This document shows, one piece after another, positions 20,038-34,696 of a DNA stretch of 38,357 nucleotides. Both the position numbers and the translations under genes were made by a program. Position 1 is the stretch's first letter, and every line of letters begins with the position of its first letter. Source of the DNA: Deltaproteobacteria bacterium (lineage in GTDB: Bacteria > Desulfobacterota > WTBG01 > CAIYCZ01 > CAIRTM01); NCBI GenBank assembly GCA_016875025.1, contig VGSH01000018.1:1-38357 (forward strand), given 5' to 3'. Under the pieces are notes generated by a model. The model saw nothing but the letters and a program-made list of their open reading frames with translations, was not told the DNA's origin and did not search any database.

Positions 20038-20129
20038 ATTGACGCACATGCTCTGAACTGGTATTGTTCAGGGCAACTACCTCTCGGCAACAAAATCAGA
20101 CATTGCGAGGAATATGGGGAAACGGCATC

Positions 20130-21584
20130 ATGTTTGAACAGGCCTTCAAGAATATTGATGACGTGCTCTGGAAAGAAGCCGGATGCACGACCGAGCTGGA
20201 CTACACCGAGCAGACCTCCTGGCTGCTGTTTCTGAAATATCTCGACGGCCTTGAGCAGGACCGCGCTGATGAAGCCGCCCTGAGCGGGAAGAAATATACC
20301 TACATTCTGGAGAAGCCCTATCGCTGGGCGAGCTGGGCTGCGCCAAAGGGCAAAGACGGCAGGCTCGACCATAACAAGGCCGATAGCGGTGATGATTTGC
20401 GCGATTTCGTCAATGGCAAGCTGTTCCCCTATCTGCACGGGTTCACGCAGCGGGCCACCGGGCCTGACACCATTGAATATAAAATAGGGCAGATTTTCGG
20501 GGAGATCAAAAACAAGATCCACAGCGGCTACAACCTGCGTGAAATCATCGATCACATTGACGAGCTGCGCTTCCGCTCGCAGGCTGAAAAACACGAGCTC
20601 TCCGCGCTGTACGAGGAAAAGATCAAGCGCATGGGCAATGCGGGCCGCAACGGCGGCGAGTATTACACCCCGCGCCCGCTTATTCGCGCCATGGTGAAAG
20701 TGGTTGCGCCGAAAATCGGTGAGACCATTTATGACGGCGCCTGCGGCTCAGCCGGGTTTTTGTGCGAGGCCTACGACTATCTTAAGTCCGGCGGCAGGCT
20801 CACCACCCGCGATGTTAAGACGCTTCAGGAAAAGACTTTTTACGGCAAAGAGAAGAAGTCGCTGGCCTATGTTATCGCCATCATGAACCTGATCCTGCAC
20901 GGCATCGAGGCCCCGAACATCCTGCACACCAACACGCTCACCGAAAACCTGGCCGATGTTCAGGAGAAAGACCGCTACGACATTATCCTGGCCAATCCGC
21001 CGTTCGGCGGCAAGGAGCGCAAGGAGGTTCAGCAGAACTTCCCCATCCGCACCGGCGAGACCGCGTTTTTGTTTTTGCAGCATTTTGTTAAAATGCTGCG
21101 CGCCGGAGGCCGCGCAGGCGTGGTTATTAAAAACACGTTTTTGTCAAACACCGATAATGCCTCGGTGTCGCTTCGCAAGCTGCTGCTTGAAAGCTGCAAT
21201 CTGCACACCGTGCTTGACTGCCCCGGCGGCACGTTTCAGGGCGCGGGCGTGAAAACCGTGGTGCTGTTTTTTGAAAAGGGCAGCAAAACGAGAAAAATTT
21301 GGTATTACAAGCTCGACCCCGGCCGCAATCTCGGCAAGACCAATTCGCTGAATGATGATGACCTGATTGACTTCATTGACCGGCAATTGACGTTTGCCGA
21401 CTCGGCCAAAAGCTGGAGCGTGGATGCTGCCGCGATTGACCCGGCGACATTTGATTTGTCGGTAAAAAACCCCAACGGCAATGAAGCGGTGGTGCACCGC
21501 AGCCCGGCCGACATCATGAATGAAATAGCCGCGCTTGATAAAGAAAGCGCGCAGGTGCTGGCAAAAATTCGAGGGCTGCTGTGA
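20130..21584 (+). CDS. hsdM: type I restriction-modification N6-adenine methyltransferase subunit HsdM
   Basis: EYYTPRPLIRAMV, YDGACGSAGFL, ILANPPFGG; start ATG 20130. Confidence 0.95.
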   Translation: MFEQAFKNIDDVLWKEAGCTTELDYTEQTSWLLFLKYLDGLEQDRADEAALSGKKYTYILEKPYRWASWAAPKGKDGRLDHNKADSGDDLRDFVNGKLFPYLHGFTQRATGPDTIEYKIGQIFGEIKNKIHSGYNLREIIDHIDELRFRSQAEKHELSALYEEKIKRMGNAGRNGGEYYTPRPLIRAMVKVVAPKIGETIYDGACGSAGFLCEAYDYLKSGGRLTTRDVKTLQEKTFYGKEKKSLAYVIAIMNLILHGIEAPNILHTNTLTENLADVQEKDRYDIILANPPFGGKERKEVQQNFPIRTGETAFLFLQHFVKMLRAGGRAGVVIKNTFLSNTDNASVSLRKLLLESCNLHTVLDCPGGTFQGAGVKTVVLFFEKGSKTRKIWYYKLDPGRNLGKTNSLNDDDLIDFIDRQLTFADSAKSWSVDAAAIDPATFDLSVKNPNGNEAVVHRSPADIMNEIAALDKESAQVLAKIRGLL

Positions 21585-22636
21585 AAAAAGGGTGGTTCAA
21601 AAAACCGTTTGAGGATTGCCTCGAAAAAGTGACCTACACCCAGAAGGTTCAGCGCAAAGACTTCTTGGATGACGGCGCATACCCTGTGGTATCTCAGGAG
21701 GAAAGTTTCATTAATGGTTATTGGGATAATGAAGCCGATCTTTTCAAGGTTAAGACACCCATCGTTATATTTGGTGATCACACCAAGGTGCTTAAATACA
21801 TCGATTTCGATTTCGTGCTGGGCGCGGACGGCGTAAAGATTTTGCCGCCACGAGATTTTCTGGTTCCAAAGTTCTTTTTCTACCAGCTGCAGAATGCAAA
21901 TCTTGAGACACTTGGATACGCACGTCACTATAAGCTTTTAAAGGAGTTAGTGATACTTTACCCGGCTCGGCCCGAACAGCAGCGGATTGTGAAGATACTT
22001 GACGAAGCTTTTGCGGGCATTGCCACTGCCCAGGCCAATGCCGCCAAAAACCTGCAAAACGCCCGCGACCTTTTCGCCAGCCACCTCAACGCAGTGTTCA
22101 CCCACCGCGGCGCCGGGTGGGTGGAGAAACGATTTGATGAATTTTGCCTTCTTCAAAGAGGCTTTGATCTTCCAACACGCGAACGAATAGCAGGCAAGTA
22201 TCCGCTGGTCAGTTCCAGCGGTATTATAGACACACATAATAAAGCCCCGGTTTGCGGGCCTGGCGTTGTCACCGGAAGAAGTGGCAGCATTGGTAATGTT
22301 TTTTTTATTAAAGAAGACTATTGGCCGCTTAACACTACATTATTCGTAAAAGAATTTTTCGGTAATGACATTCGATTTACCTACTGGCTTCTCAACTATT
22401 TTAAACTGTTACGCTTTGCATCAGGAACCGGTGTTCCTACGCTTAACCGTAATGCTGTTCATGAACAGCCCGTAATAGTCCCAGCTTGTTGTGATAAACA
22501 AAAAGCTATTGCCGCCCAGCTCGACGCCCTGTCCTCCGAGACCCGGCGCTTGGCTGCCATCTACCAGCGCAAGCAGGCGGCGCTGTCGGAATTCAAGCAG
22601 TCGCTGCTGCACCGGGCCTTTGCGGGGGAGTTATAA
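21581..22636 (+). CDS. hsdS: type I restriction-modification specificity subunit HsdS
   Basis: Two TRD-like halves with coiled spacers 'PARPEQQRIVKILDEAFAGI' and 'QKAIAAQLDALSSETRRLAAIYQRKQAALSEFKQSLLHRAFAGEL'; GTG start overlapping hsdM. Confidence 0.93.
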   Translation: MKKGWFKKPFEDCLEKVTYTQKVQRKDFLDDGAYPVVSQEESFINGYWDNEADLFKVKTPIVIFGDHTKVLKYIDFDFVLGADGVKILPPRDFLVPKFFFYQLQNANLETLGYARHYKLLKELVILYPARPEQQRIVKILDEAFAGIATAQANAAKNLQNARDLFASHLNAVFTHRGAGWVEKRFDEFCLLQRGFDLPTRERIAGKYPLVSSSGIIDTHNKAPVCGPGVVTGRSGSIGNVFFIKEDYWPLNTTLFVKEFFGNDIRFTYWLLNYFKLLRFASGTGVPTLNRNAVHEQPVIVPACCDKQKAIAAQLDALSSETRRLAAIYQRKQAALSEFKQSLLHRAFAGEL

Positions 22637-22734
22637 ATTGACCTTATTGACAAAGTTGACATTGTTGATAATGTGCGGAAAGCCTCTTGCAGCGAAGCGT
22701 CAATGAGGTCAATCGGGTCAACAGGGTCACACAC
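22637..22734. repeat. two opposed 9-bp-period tandem arrays (4 units each)
   Basis: ATTGACCTT ATTGACAAA GTTGACATT GTTGATAAT (22637-22672) and GTCAATGAG GTCAATCGG GTCAACAGG GTCACACAC (22699-22734). Confidence 0.75.
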
Positions 22735-22760: not shown

Positions 22761-23510
22761 ATGCCTGAACTGTTTGACAAACACGGAGGGTTTCGAAGGC
22801 TGCATTCATTTACGCTGGCCACGATCATTCAGCTCGAAACCCTGCGCTTCTGCCGCCGATTTCTCACGCACGACGTGCGCGAGCGCGAAAAAAAATCCTA
22901 CGACCCCAAGGGCCGCCAGTATGACCAGATGATTCAGGCCGCCCGCAGCGGCAGGCAGAACATCATCGAAGGCTCGGAGCGCTCCGCAACATCGAAAGAC
23001 ACTGAGATGAAACTCACCGATGTGGCGCGCGCAAGCCTGAGCGAGCTGCGCGGCGACTTTGAGGTCTGGATTCTGGACAAGGGCGCGCTGCCCTGGTCAG
23101 CGCATGCGCCTGAAGCCCGCGAGATAAACGCCGTTTCTCTTGACCCGGCACCGTTCACGGACGACATGGTGCATGAGTCCGCAAAGCATGCGCTGCAGCA
23201 GCGCAAAAAATACGCCCGCTGGCTCGACAGCGATGATGACGCTGTGGTGGCCAATGCCATGCTGGTTATTATCAGCCGGGCGCTGAACATGCTCAAAAGC
23301 CAGATCGAGGCCCAGGGCAAGGCGTTTGAAGAAACCGGCGGGTTCAGCGAGCGGCTGACCGCCAAACGCATCGAAGCGCGCGAGCGCAATAAAGAACCAT
23401 CGCCTGAGTGCCCGCAGTGCGGCCAGAGCATGCGCAAGCGCACATCGGCCAAGGGCGATTTCTGGGGCTGCACCGGATTTCCCGAATGCCGGGGCACCCG
23501 GCCTTACTGA
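22761..23510 (+). CDS. four-helix-bundle (suffix-domain type) protein with C-terminal topoisomerase-type zinc ribbon
   Basis: 'AARSGRQNIIEGSERSATSKDTEMKLTDVARASLSELRGDFEVWI' resembles S23/four-helix-bundle proteins; C-terminal 'CPQCGQSMRKRTSAKGDFWGCTGFPECRGTRPY' zinc ribbon. Confidence 0.75.
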   Translation: MPELFDKHGGFRRLHSFTLATIIQLETLRFCRRFLTHDVREREKKSYDPKGRQYDQMIQAARSGRQNIIEGSERSATSKDTEMKLTDVARASLSELRGDFEVWILDKGALPWSAHAPEAREINAVSLDPAPFTDDMVHESAKHALQQRKKYARWLDSDDDAVVANAMLVIISRALNMLKSQIEAQGKAFEETGGFSERLTAKRIEARERNKEPSPECPQCGQSMRKRTSAKGDFWGCTGFPECRGTRPY

Positions 23511-23523
23511 AAAGCTTTTTACT

Positions 23524-26004
23524 ATGAACGAAGCTGAAACCAGAGCCGAACACATCGACCCCGCGCTTAAAGCAGCAGGCTGGGGCGCACTTGATGGCAG
23601 CCGCATCCGGCGCGAATACGGTATCGCGCCCGGCCGCATTGAAGGTTCGGGCCGCCGCCGCGCCCTGAAGGCCGATTATGTGCTTGAATACCGCAATACA
23701 AAACTTGCGGTTATTGAAGCCAAGGCCTGGGATCAACCCCTGACCGAAGGCTTGGCGCAGGCCAAGGACTATGCTGCAAAACTTGCCGTGCGCTTTGCCT
23801 ATGCTGCCAACGGGCAGGGCATCTACGCAATCGACATGCACATTGGCAGCGAGGGCGAAATCGCCGCCTTCCCGTCGCCTGAAGAACTCTGGAACCGGAC
23901 CTTCGCCGAGGCAAACGCATGGCGCGATCGTTTTGCCGCCGAGCCCTTTGAAGACAAGGGCGGCTCGCATCCGGGCCGCTATTATCAGGACATTGCGGTT
24001 GAGCGGGTAATGGAGTCCATCGCCGCAGGCAAAAAGCGCATACTGCTCACCCTTGCCACGGGCACGGGCAAAACATTCATCGCCTTTCAGGTTGCCTGGA
24101 AACTGTTTCACAGCCGCTGGAACCTGACCGGCGAACCCACACGGCGGCCGCGCATTTTGTTTCTGGCTGATCGCAACATACTTGCCAATCAGGCGTTTAA
24201 TGCTTTCTCGGCCTTCCCCGAAGACGCACTCGTCCGGATCTCGCCGGATGACATCCGCAAAAAGGGTAAAGCTCCTAAAAACGGCAGCCTGTTTTTCACC
24301 ATCTTCCAGACCTTCATGACCTCTGATTTGTCCAATGTCCCTGCTGTCAATCAGGTCAGCAAGGTCATCCCCGTTGTTCAAAAGTCTGCAACCTATCCGA
24401 CATCGTGCGAGGATGCTGCGCAACCCGCCCTGGCAGCGGAGAGGCGCGAAGTGTACAGCGCCTATCCGCCTGACTTTTTCGACTTCATCGTTATTGACGA
24501 GTGCCACCGGGGCGGCGCGAACGACGAGAGCAACTGGCGCGGCATCATGGAGTATTTCGCCCCGGCAGTGCAGCTTGGGCTGACTGCCACACCGAAGCGC
24601 ACTGAAAATGCTGACACCTACCGGTATTTCGGCGAGCCGGTCTACATTTATTCGCTCAAGGACGGCATCAACGACGGCTTTCTCACGCCGTTCAGGGTAC
24701 GGCAGATCTCAACGACGCTGGATGATTATGTGTACACGCCAGATGATACGGTCATCGAAGGCGAGATCGAGGCGGGCAGGCGCTACGAGGAAGATGACTT
24801 CAACAAAAAAATCGAGATCATGGCGCGCGAAAAGAAACGGGTTGAAATCTTTATGGCCGCCATAGACCAGCGTGAAAAAACGCTGGTGTTCTGTGCCACG
24901 CAAAACCACGCGCTTGCCGTGCGCGATCTTGTTAATCAAATGAAGACCAGCAAAGACCCGCATTACTGTGAGCGGGTTACGGCCAACGACGGCGCTCTGG
25001 GTGAGCAGCATCTGAGAGATTTTCAGGATACCGAAAAGACGATTCCAACAATCCTGACCACATCGCAGAAGCTTTCAACCGGCGTGGACGCCCGCAACAT
25101 CCGCAATATCGTTTTGATGCGGCCGATTAATTCGATTATCGAGTTCAAGCAGATCATCGGGCGCGGCACGCGCCTGTTCGACGGCAAGGATTATTTTACT
25201 ATCTATGATTTCGTAAAGGCGCACCTGCATTTCAGCGATCCCGAGTGGGACGGCGAACCGCTGGAGCCGGAAGCATGCAGCGCCTGCGGCACATATCCCT
25301 GCGCATGCGAGAAGCCACAACCGCATCCGTGCCCGGTGTGCGGAAAACGGCCCTGCGTGTGCCCGAAGGAGCCCTGCCCGAAATGCGGACAGCGGCCGTG
25401 TATCTGCAAAAAGAAGGTAAAGGTCAAGCTGGCCGACGGCAAAGAGCGCACCATTGCCCACATAATGTGTACCAGCTTCTGGCACCCGGACGGAACGCCC
25501 ATGTCGGCTGCTCAGTTTATGGAACTGCTTTTCGGCAGGCTGCCTGATTTTTTTAACAACGAGGAAGATCTGAGAACCATCTGGAGCGCGCCGGACACAC
25601 GCGGGCGGCTTTTGGAAGGGCTTGCTGAAAAAGGCTTTGGCCGCGAGCAGCTTGCGGAAATGCAGCGGATCATCGATGCGCAGAAGAGCGATCTGTTCGA
25701 TGTGCTTGCCTATGTGGCCTATGCTTTGCCGACGCTGACCCGTGCAGAGCGGGTTGACCGCGCCAGAGTAGCAATTAAGACATCCTTTAATGACAAACAA
25801 CAGGCTTTTCTCGATTTTGTGCTGGCGCATTACATCAGCGTGGGTGTTGAGGAGCTCGATCAGGAAAAACTGACCCCGCTGCTGCGTCTGAAATATCACG
25901 ACTCTATCGCCGATGCCGTGGCTGATTTAGGCAGACCGGAAGAGATTGGGCAAGTATTCTCTGGGTTTCAGAAATATCTGTATGCGCGGCAGCTTGGGGC
26001 ATAG
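23524..26004 (+). CDS. hsdR: type I restriction endonuclease subunit HsdR (DEAD/DEAH helicase, EcoEI-like)
   Basis: ATGTGKTFIAFQ, DECHRGG, LTATPKRTENADT, IGRGTRLFDGKDYFTIYDFV; N-terminal 'LAVIEAKAW' nuclease motif. Confidence 0.94.
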   Translation: MNEAETRAEHIDPALKAAGWGALDGSRIRREYGIAPGRIEGSGRRRALKADYVLEYRNTKLAVIEAKAWDQPLTEGLAQAKDYAAKLAVRFAYAANGQGIYAIDMHIGSEGEIAAFPSPEELWNRTFAEANAWRDRFAAEPFEDKGGSHPGRYYQDIAVERVMESIAAGKKRILLTLATGTGKTFIAFQVAWKLFHSRWNLTGEPTRRPRILFLADRNILANQAFNAFSAFPEDALVRISPDDIRKKGKAPKNGSLFFTIFQTFMTSDLSNVPAVNQVSKVIPVVQKSATYPTSCEDAAQPALAAERREVYSAYPPDFFDFIVIDECHRGGANDESNWRGIMEYFAPAVQLGLTATPKRTENADTYRYFGEPVYIYSLKDGINDGFLTPFRVRQISTTLDDYVYTPDDTVIEGEIEAGRRYEEDDFNKKIEIMAREKKRVEIFMAAIDQREKTLVFCATQNHALAVRDLVNQMKTSKDPHYCERVTANDGALGEQHLRDFQDTEKTIPTILTTSQKLSTGVDARNIRNIVLMRPINSIIEFKQIIGRGTRLFDGKDYFTIYDFVKAHLHFSDPEWDGEPLEPEACSACGTYPCACEKPQPHPCPVCGKRPCVCPKEPCPKCGQRPCICKKKVKVKLADGKERTIAHIMCTSFWHPDGTPMSAAQFMELLFGRLPDFFNNEEDLRTIWSAPDTRGRLLEGLAEKGFGREQLAEMQRIIDAQKSDLFDVLAYVAYALPTLTRAERVDRARVAIKTSFNDKQQAFLDFVLAHYISVGVEELDQEKLTPLLRLKYHDSIADAVADLGRPEEIGQVFSGFQKYLYARQLGA

Positions 26005-34429: not shown

Positions 34430-34696
34430 ATGGCAACTTCAAAACAGGTAAAAAACAAAATCAGCAGCAACAAGAAAAAAGCAGCACGTCTGGAGAAAGA
34501 ACTGAAGGCAGCCAAGGCTGTCGCAACCAGGCTGCAGGGCGATCTGAAGAGGGCCGTTGCCGCTGAAAAGAAGGCGCCCGCCAAGAAAAAAGCGGCTCCC
34601 CGGAAAAAAGCCGCCCCGAAGAAAAAAGGGATTGCCAGGAAAAAGGCTGCGCCGAAGAAAAAAGCGGCTTCAAAAAAGAAAGCCGTCAGGAAGTAG
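34430..34696 (+). CDS. histone-H1-like Lys/Ala-rich protein (88 aa)
   Basis: KKAPAKKKAAPRKKAAPKKKGIARKKAAPKKKAASKKKAVRK tail; GGGAGGG Shine-Dalgarno; own terminator. Confidence 0.8.
   Translation: MATSKQVKNKISSNKKKAARLEKELKAAKAVATRLQGDLKRAVAAEKKAPAKKKAAPRKKAAPKKKGIARKKAAPKKKAASKKKAVRK

Follow-up and report, generated by a model that had tools for sequence, protein, structure and literature searches.

Introduction

The STRR heptanucleotide repeats of cyanobacteria have been recognized for decades and, to our knowledge, their source has found no explanation. A different use of repeats is seen in TRAP-type ring proteins, whose protomers each touch one repeat of regularly spaced tandem triplets in RNA. 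S23/four-helix-bundle (FHB) proteins are common and structurally solved, and their function is unexplained. According to PMC4990558, which cites Lin et al. (2006), Xanthomonas S23p forms a homopentameric toroid. In the Coxiella 23S rRNA IVS, tandem GACAGAT heptamers lie directly 5' of the S23p start and their copy number varies between strains (PMC4990558). These heptamers are the sole published case found that fits the association of FHB genes with arrays described here; the open-access literature yielded no paper linking FHB genes to tandem repeats in general, and novelty is provisional.

Results

Opposed 9-bp arrays between hsdS and an FHB gene

In the window, the whole stretch of 38,357 nucleotides that was analysed, an FHB gene (P0001) lies within an hsd operon and is preceded by two opposed arrays:

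20130 to 21584, forward strand: hsdM of the host operon, probably starting with the ATG at 20130, although a TTG at 20064 is also open
21581 to 22636, forward strand: hsdS, encoding the specificity subunit (type I), a gene of the host operon and outside the proposed cassette
22637 to 22672, forward strand: forward array, four 9-mers of RTTGAY plus NNN (ATTGACCTT ATTGACAAA GTTGACATT GTTGATAAT)
22673 to 22698, no strand: 26-bp gap separating the opposed arrays
22699 to 22734, reverse strand: opposed array, four 9-mers of the reverse-complement type (GTCAATGAG GTCAATCGG GTCAACAGG GTCACACAC)
22761 to 23510, forward strand: FHB gene P0001, 249 aa, with a TIGR02436-like bundle, a TIGR04258 4helix_suffix and a Top1-type zinc ribbon
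23524 to 26004, forward strand: hsdR, EcoAI/FtnUII-type, host operon

The forward array begins at 22637, directly 3' of the hsdS TAA (22634-22636), and the gap and the end at 22734 are also exactly where a reading made earlier from the sequence alone had placed them. The fourth unit of the opposed array (GTCACACAC) is degenerate, and the 13 bp between the FHB stop and hsdR hold no array, the arrays of the window copy being upstream only. The two-unit pattern RTTGACNNNRTTGAC, with at most one mismatch, matched 10 times in the window versus 0.44 expected, and TRF detects both arrays with period 9. Across the 3.25-Mb genome, RTTGAYNNN x3 occurs at the window locus and in one other place, and the reversed-pattern control gave 0 matches; a lack of such enrichment had been named beforehand as a result that would speak against the arrays. 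The opposed arrays at 22637-22734 are real and above chance.

The second place in the genome, on contig C8, falls in a CARDB-like coding motif that is conserved as coding in the sister genome and is probably a coincidence. Both genomes carry the RTTGAC-like 9-bp array within this motif (L080, 6850-6885; L067, 12404-12436). It lies at a distance of 3 kb from another FHB gene and, despite its conservation, is probably again a coding coincidence. When RTTGAC x4 was searched across 297 genomes, the match within the genus (C8/C11) fell in the same CARDB-like motif and beyond the genus only two perfect-unit repeats, presumed coding, were found. Elsewhere in the window, a 36-bp (2 x 18) tandem repeat at 34565-34669 encodes a lysine/alanine-rich tail (AAPKKK-like).

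P0001 can be aligned with the FHB family over its length, but profile support for its FHB domain is weak. Residues 54-97 match TIGR02436 just below its cut-off (E 1.2e-4; 22.2 bits vs 24) and the match to PF05635 is also below (20.7 bits vs 33.8), residues 160-207 match TIGR04258 above its cut-off (E 7e-17; 61.1 bits vs 40), and residues 216-248 are a topoisomerase (Top1)-type zinc ribbon (PF01396). For a structure model obtained from 54 aligned relatives (pLDDT 88), the best natural fold match was 2RLD of the S23 family, a weak one (E about 0.1); 2GSC was matched marginally by profile, and these two are the structural relatives found. The domain profile search found no transposase domain in P0001, the PADLOC anti-phage defence models gave no match at E 0.1, and no relatives were found among phages; a plasmid search returned one FHB-suffix gene, in Prevotella. 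The window's genome also contains a plain FHB gene interrupted by in-frame stop codons (L005; G000:C92:2434-2758).

Joint presence or absence of gene and arrays in sister genomes

FHB genes with the suffix domain occur in 41 of 297 genomes of the phylum, and the window's own genome (G000) has four. The nearest relative of P0001, with 79% protein identity, is L074 in the same-genus genome G104, and these two copies are the only members of the RTTGAC clade known here. L074 adjoins msrA and is without adjacent hsd genes; three RTTGAC units stand upstream of it and opposed RTTGAC/GTCAAT arrays directly past its stop codon. At the orthologous site G000 has 62 bp instead of about 1.1 kb, with flanks that are 76-93% identical between the two genomes on one side and 86% on the other. 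Gene and arrays are thus present or absent together as one unit between sister species, by gain or by loss, and the single empty site could be a deletion. An hsdR-based search of close relatives found no orthologous hsd operon in which an empty counterpart of the window's own insertion could be recognized. Because L074, with an unrelated neighbour, has the same RTTGAC arrays and the G000 site is empty, the arrays at 22637-22734 are assigned to the FHB gene and not to hsdS.

Arrays accompany FHB-suffix genes across phyla

Loci were selected by protein alone, and array periods were then scored in their regions and in matched stretches, with periods and score thresholds set on a first set (from the phylum) and then applied to a second, multi-phylum set. 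Of the 56 FHB-suffix regions in the phylum set, 41 had 9-bp arrays, compared with 5 of 53 matched controls (Fisher 6e-12); in the multi-phylum set, 58/80 regions and 7/80 controls had them (Fisher 3e-17). Related loci are not independent in these counts. The multi-phylum set also contained 10-bp arrays of the CACNGACnnn type (21 of 80 regions, 1 of 80 controls; Fisher 3e-6), mostly at loci without 9-bp arrays, and other periods at FHB-suffix loci stayed at background level. As about a tenth of these loci have no recognizable array (for example L071, L073, L079, and L082), arrays may be dispensable. Loci of this kind had been proposed in advance as a refutation of the array-gene link; they exist, but most FHB-suffix loci have arrays, and the link is for the most part not refuted.

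Arrays stand downstream of the gene as well as upstream of it, frequently just 5' of the FHB start, and also in the linker that joins the helix domain to the suffix. Those in the linker are in frame and encode 3-residue repeats, and some conservation there could be at the protein level. Copy number ranges from 3 to 16 units. Very long GTGGACnnn arrays of 9-16 units were seen at some FHB-suffix genes (L213, 622-1230; L170; L198), possibly reflecting a fast-evolving copy number. That the arrays are functionless repeat slippage or low-complexity coding sequence would agree with the variable copy number, with the in-frame linker repeats and with the TTGAC array of the CARDB-like gene, which resembles such a coincidence. 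This explanation is nevertheless hardly credible, since arrays are found far above matched controls, their periods of 7, 9, or 10 go by protein family and their motifs by clade, they are paired in opposite orientation, and intergenic copies have fixed cores and free spacers.

Among 136 loci the motif classes RTGGACnnn (54), GTCNGACnn (19), CACNGACnnn (18), and YTATARG (12) were distinguished, further classes being AGGGAC, ATGGGA, and RTTGAC. On a tree of 134 proteins, calculated from columns at least 90% filled and thus with most linker columns excluded, the motif class changes 7 times among classified rows, and the RTGGAC class 5 times compared with 42 times when shuffled. P0001 and L074 form their own clade. 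The sole odd row in the 10-bp clade is L209, which was labelled RTGGAC by the script, yet has 10-bp linker arrays. Motif class follows protein clade across phyla. In a search that started from the motif, 10 of 297 genomes contained GTGGACNNN x4 (GTGGACnnn), and 9 of the 10 possess a suffix-FHB gene compared with 41/297 overall (P 7e-8); the reversed-pattern control occurred in 0/297. In the remaining genome, G015, the GTGGAC array is part of a long ORF containing repeats of the TGTGGACA type and was taken as unrelated.

Orientation, folding and pairing of the arrays

Where arrays of opposite type are neighbours, a forward array precedes a reverse one in 41 cases and the order is reversed in 1 (41/42 mixed pairs); lone upstream arrays are forward in 17 cases versus 2, and lone downstream arrays reverse in 15 versus 2. 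Inverted ends are arranged in this way, and so are the two arms of a hairpin. The sequence-only reading had considered that the opposed arrays form a long stem in the hsd transcript and thereby tune the expression of hsdS against that of downstream genes, for which the convergent, hairpin-capable geometry in 41/42 pairs and the folding of the region can be quoted. Folded alone, the 98 bases 22637-22734 give a full-length hairpin in which the cores pair in register (-32.5 kcal/mol, z -3.5); with a few flanking bases included, however, z is only -1.3. The expected 15-base match with one G-U also exists, but it joins the outer two forward units to the inner two reverse units and not outer to outer. 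A covariance check, which had been suggested, went against a stem: in facing arrays, spacers pair at the shuffled level (0.333 vs 0.335, n=192; 0.323 vs 0.331, n=99). Spacers without co-variation indicate that it is the repeated core and the spacing that are under selection and not a continuous stem; RNA or single-stranded DNA may still form hairpins interrupted by internal loops. In addition, hsd genes are near only 16 of 57 FHB-suffix loci, L074 has its arrays without adjacent hsd genes, and an Rfam scan of the window matched tRNA only and not the arrays. A hairpin tuning hsd expression is therefore very improbable. The search of related genomes for the pattern, in which arrays accompany FHB genes and follow their protein clades and most loci lie outside hsd operons, together with the comparison of the sister species, strongly supports another proposal of that reading, namely that the arrays flank a small cassette carrying the four-helix gene.

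Plain FHB genes and cyanobacterial plasmids

Around plain FHB genes (TIGR02436 without suffix) period 7 was found in 22 of 30 regions and period 9 in 1 of 30; period 7 was also present in 11/30 far flanks, partly from further arrays nearby. The arrays of these genes directly precede the start codon and follow the stop codon, one inverted relative to the other, and an inverted-end score, for which the upstream flank is aligned with the reversed downstream flank, had a median of 16.5 for FHB genes versus 8.0 for other ORFs (P 3e-8). Plain FHB genes were found on 24 plasmid records, mostly from Nostocales; 14 of the 24 loci were read, 12 of them cyanobacterial, and in 14/14 the FHB gene lies between opposed 7-8-bp arrays. 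On a Nostoc edaphicum plasmid, GGGAGTA x7 and TCCCTAC x5 arrays enclose an FHB gene between two ribonucleotide reductase (RNR) genes, on a Pseudanabaena plasmid AAAGCTA and GCCAAAA arrays enclose one within a cas operon, and TCAGGAG arrays are found at plasmid FHB genes of Nostoc, Trichormus, and Aulosira. These plasmid arrays resemble the STRR heptamers of cyanobacteria and may correspond to published STRR classes, and their position suggests that STRR repeats are FHB-linked.

Two observations on the individual plasmid loci may be added. All 12 cyanobacterial plasmid FHB genes (L307-L318) are flanked on both sides by STRR-like 7-8-bp arrays. Four plain FHB genes with opposed heptamer or octamer arrays (L308, L310, L313, L316) are situated inside operons, between RNR beta and alpha genes, between cas10 and cmr3, and, twice, between cas6 and cas4.

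Isolated arrays and autoregulation

Isolated intergenic GTGGAC arrays are present in G000 in both orientations, and two of them are kept at orthologous sites of G104 with conserved cores and changed spacers. The conserved GTGGACnnn arrays (L257/L261 and L254/L260) lie after ssb and before an oxidoreductase gene. These dispersed arrays, together with the frequent position of arrays directly upstream of the FHB start, would fit a reading in which the FHB/zinc-ribbon protein acts on the arrays, as operator or as mRNA site, to repress its own gene, with no mobility and with the dispersed arrays as its regulon. Such autoregulation, possible through the same binding that is proposed below, is the main rival explanation, but we consider it unlikely: arrays also occur within and downstream of genes and in convergent pairs, the protein clade that motif class tracks extends over many phyla, the genes on either side of a cassette are unrelated from case to case and include those of cas, RNR, and hsd operons, and the gene is gained or lost as a unit with its arrays.

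Discussion

The arrays at 22637-22734 are probably cognate repeat sites of the downstream FHB gene, forming with it a small IVS-like (S23-type) cassette within the hsd operon. Like the copies in the cas and RNR examples, the window copy has the look of a passenger that occupies a gap in an operon, and annotators may note that an FHB gene found within an hsd or cas operon is probably such a passenger. By analogy with other S23 proteins, the FHB protein is expected to be a pentameric ring and would most likely bind its own array, perhaps with one repeat per protomer, on duplex or on folded single-stranded nucleic acid. Recognition of a tandem array by a ring would let the protein family set the period and the clade set the core, and FHB specificity might then be readable from sequence through the pairing of clade and array. 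Array pairs could be ends or docking sites for maintenance and spread of the cassette, in an IVS- or REP-like manner, and arrays standing alone between genes would then represent either copies that are not autonomous or sites that have been domesticated. No recombinase can be recognized in the cassette, so that copying would need host or trans-acting machinery; no transposition of FHB cassettes was seen in the genomes compared. Binding of array by protein, mobility and any effect on the hsd genes are what we infer from these patterns, and none of the results speaks for a part in tuning hsd genes.

More tentatively, and with the odds slightly against so broad a statement, FHB genes and their clade-specific arrays may constitute one very widespread class of minimal mobile or selfish DNA that has no transposase, consists of a ring protein and cognate repeats with a period set by the protein, includes IVS elements and the cassettes of cas, RNR, and hsd operons, and is the source of STRRs. 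The reproducible match between a protein clade and the period and motif of its repeats unites FHB function and STRR origin in one testable question, whether each FHB protein binds and spreads the array that belongs to it.

Among described systems, the IVS elements of Coxiella and Leptospira resemble the window cassette in being small, in having one S23/FHB ORF between terminal inverted repeats and in having been called selfish. They differ by their location in 23S rRNA and excision by RNase III, whereas the window cassette, with its 9-bp arrays, lies outside rRNA in a protein operon (hsd) and the window contains no rRNA. Inverted repeats stand at both ends in relatives of the window copy, which itself has the upstream pair only, and its FHB protein additionally carries the suffix domain and a zinc ribbon; a perfect stem of the RNase III type was not seen. 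REP/BIME elements with RAYT (TnpA-REP) share a repeat-flanked gene, related repeats dispersed between genes and a repeat class that tracks protein clade, but FHB proteins have no HuH/Y1 transposase signature, their repeats are tandem 7-10-mers and not single palindromes, and dispersed copies of FHB arrays are far fewer. With TRAP the likeness is one of proposed logic only, a ring of protomers on a spaced array with binding by FHB predicted, and the folds are unrelated. The STRR heptanucleotide repeats differ from the window units, which are 9-mers with three free bases; the likeness lies in the plasmid FHB/S23 genes, which are bounded by opposed 7-8-bp arrays of STRR type. STRRs would, on this comparison, be the ends of FHB cassettes, and the link between FHB genes and arrays may explain these cyanobacterial repeats.
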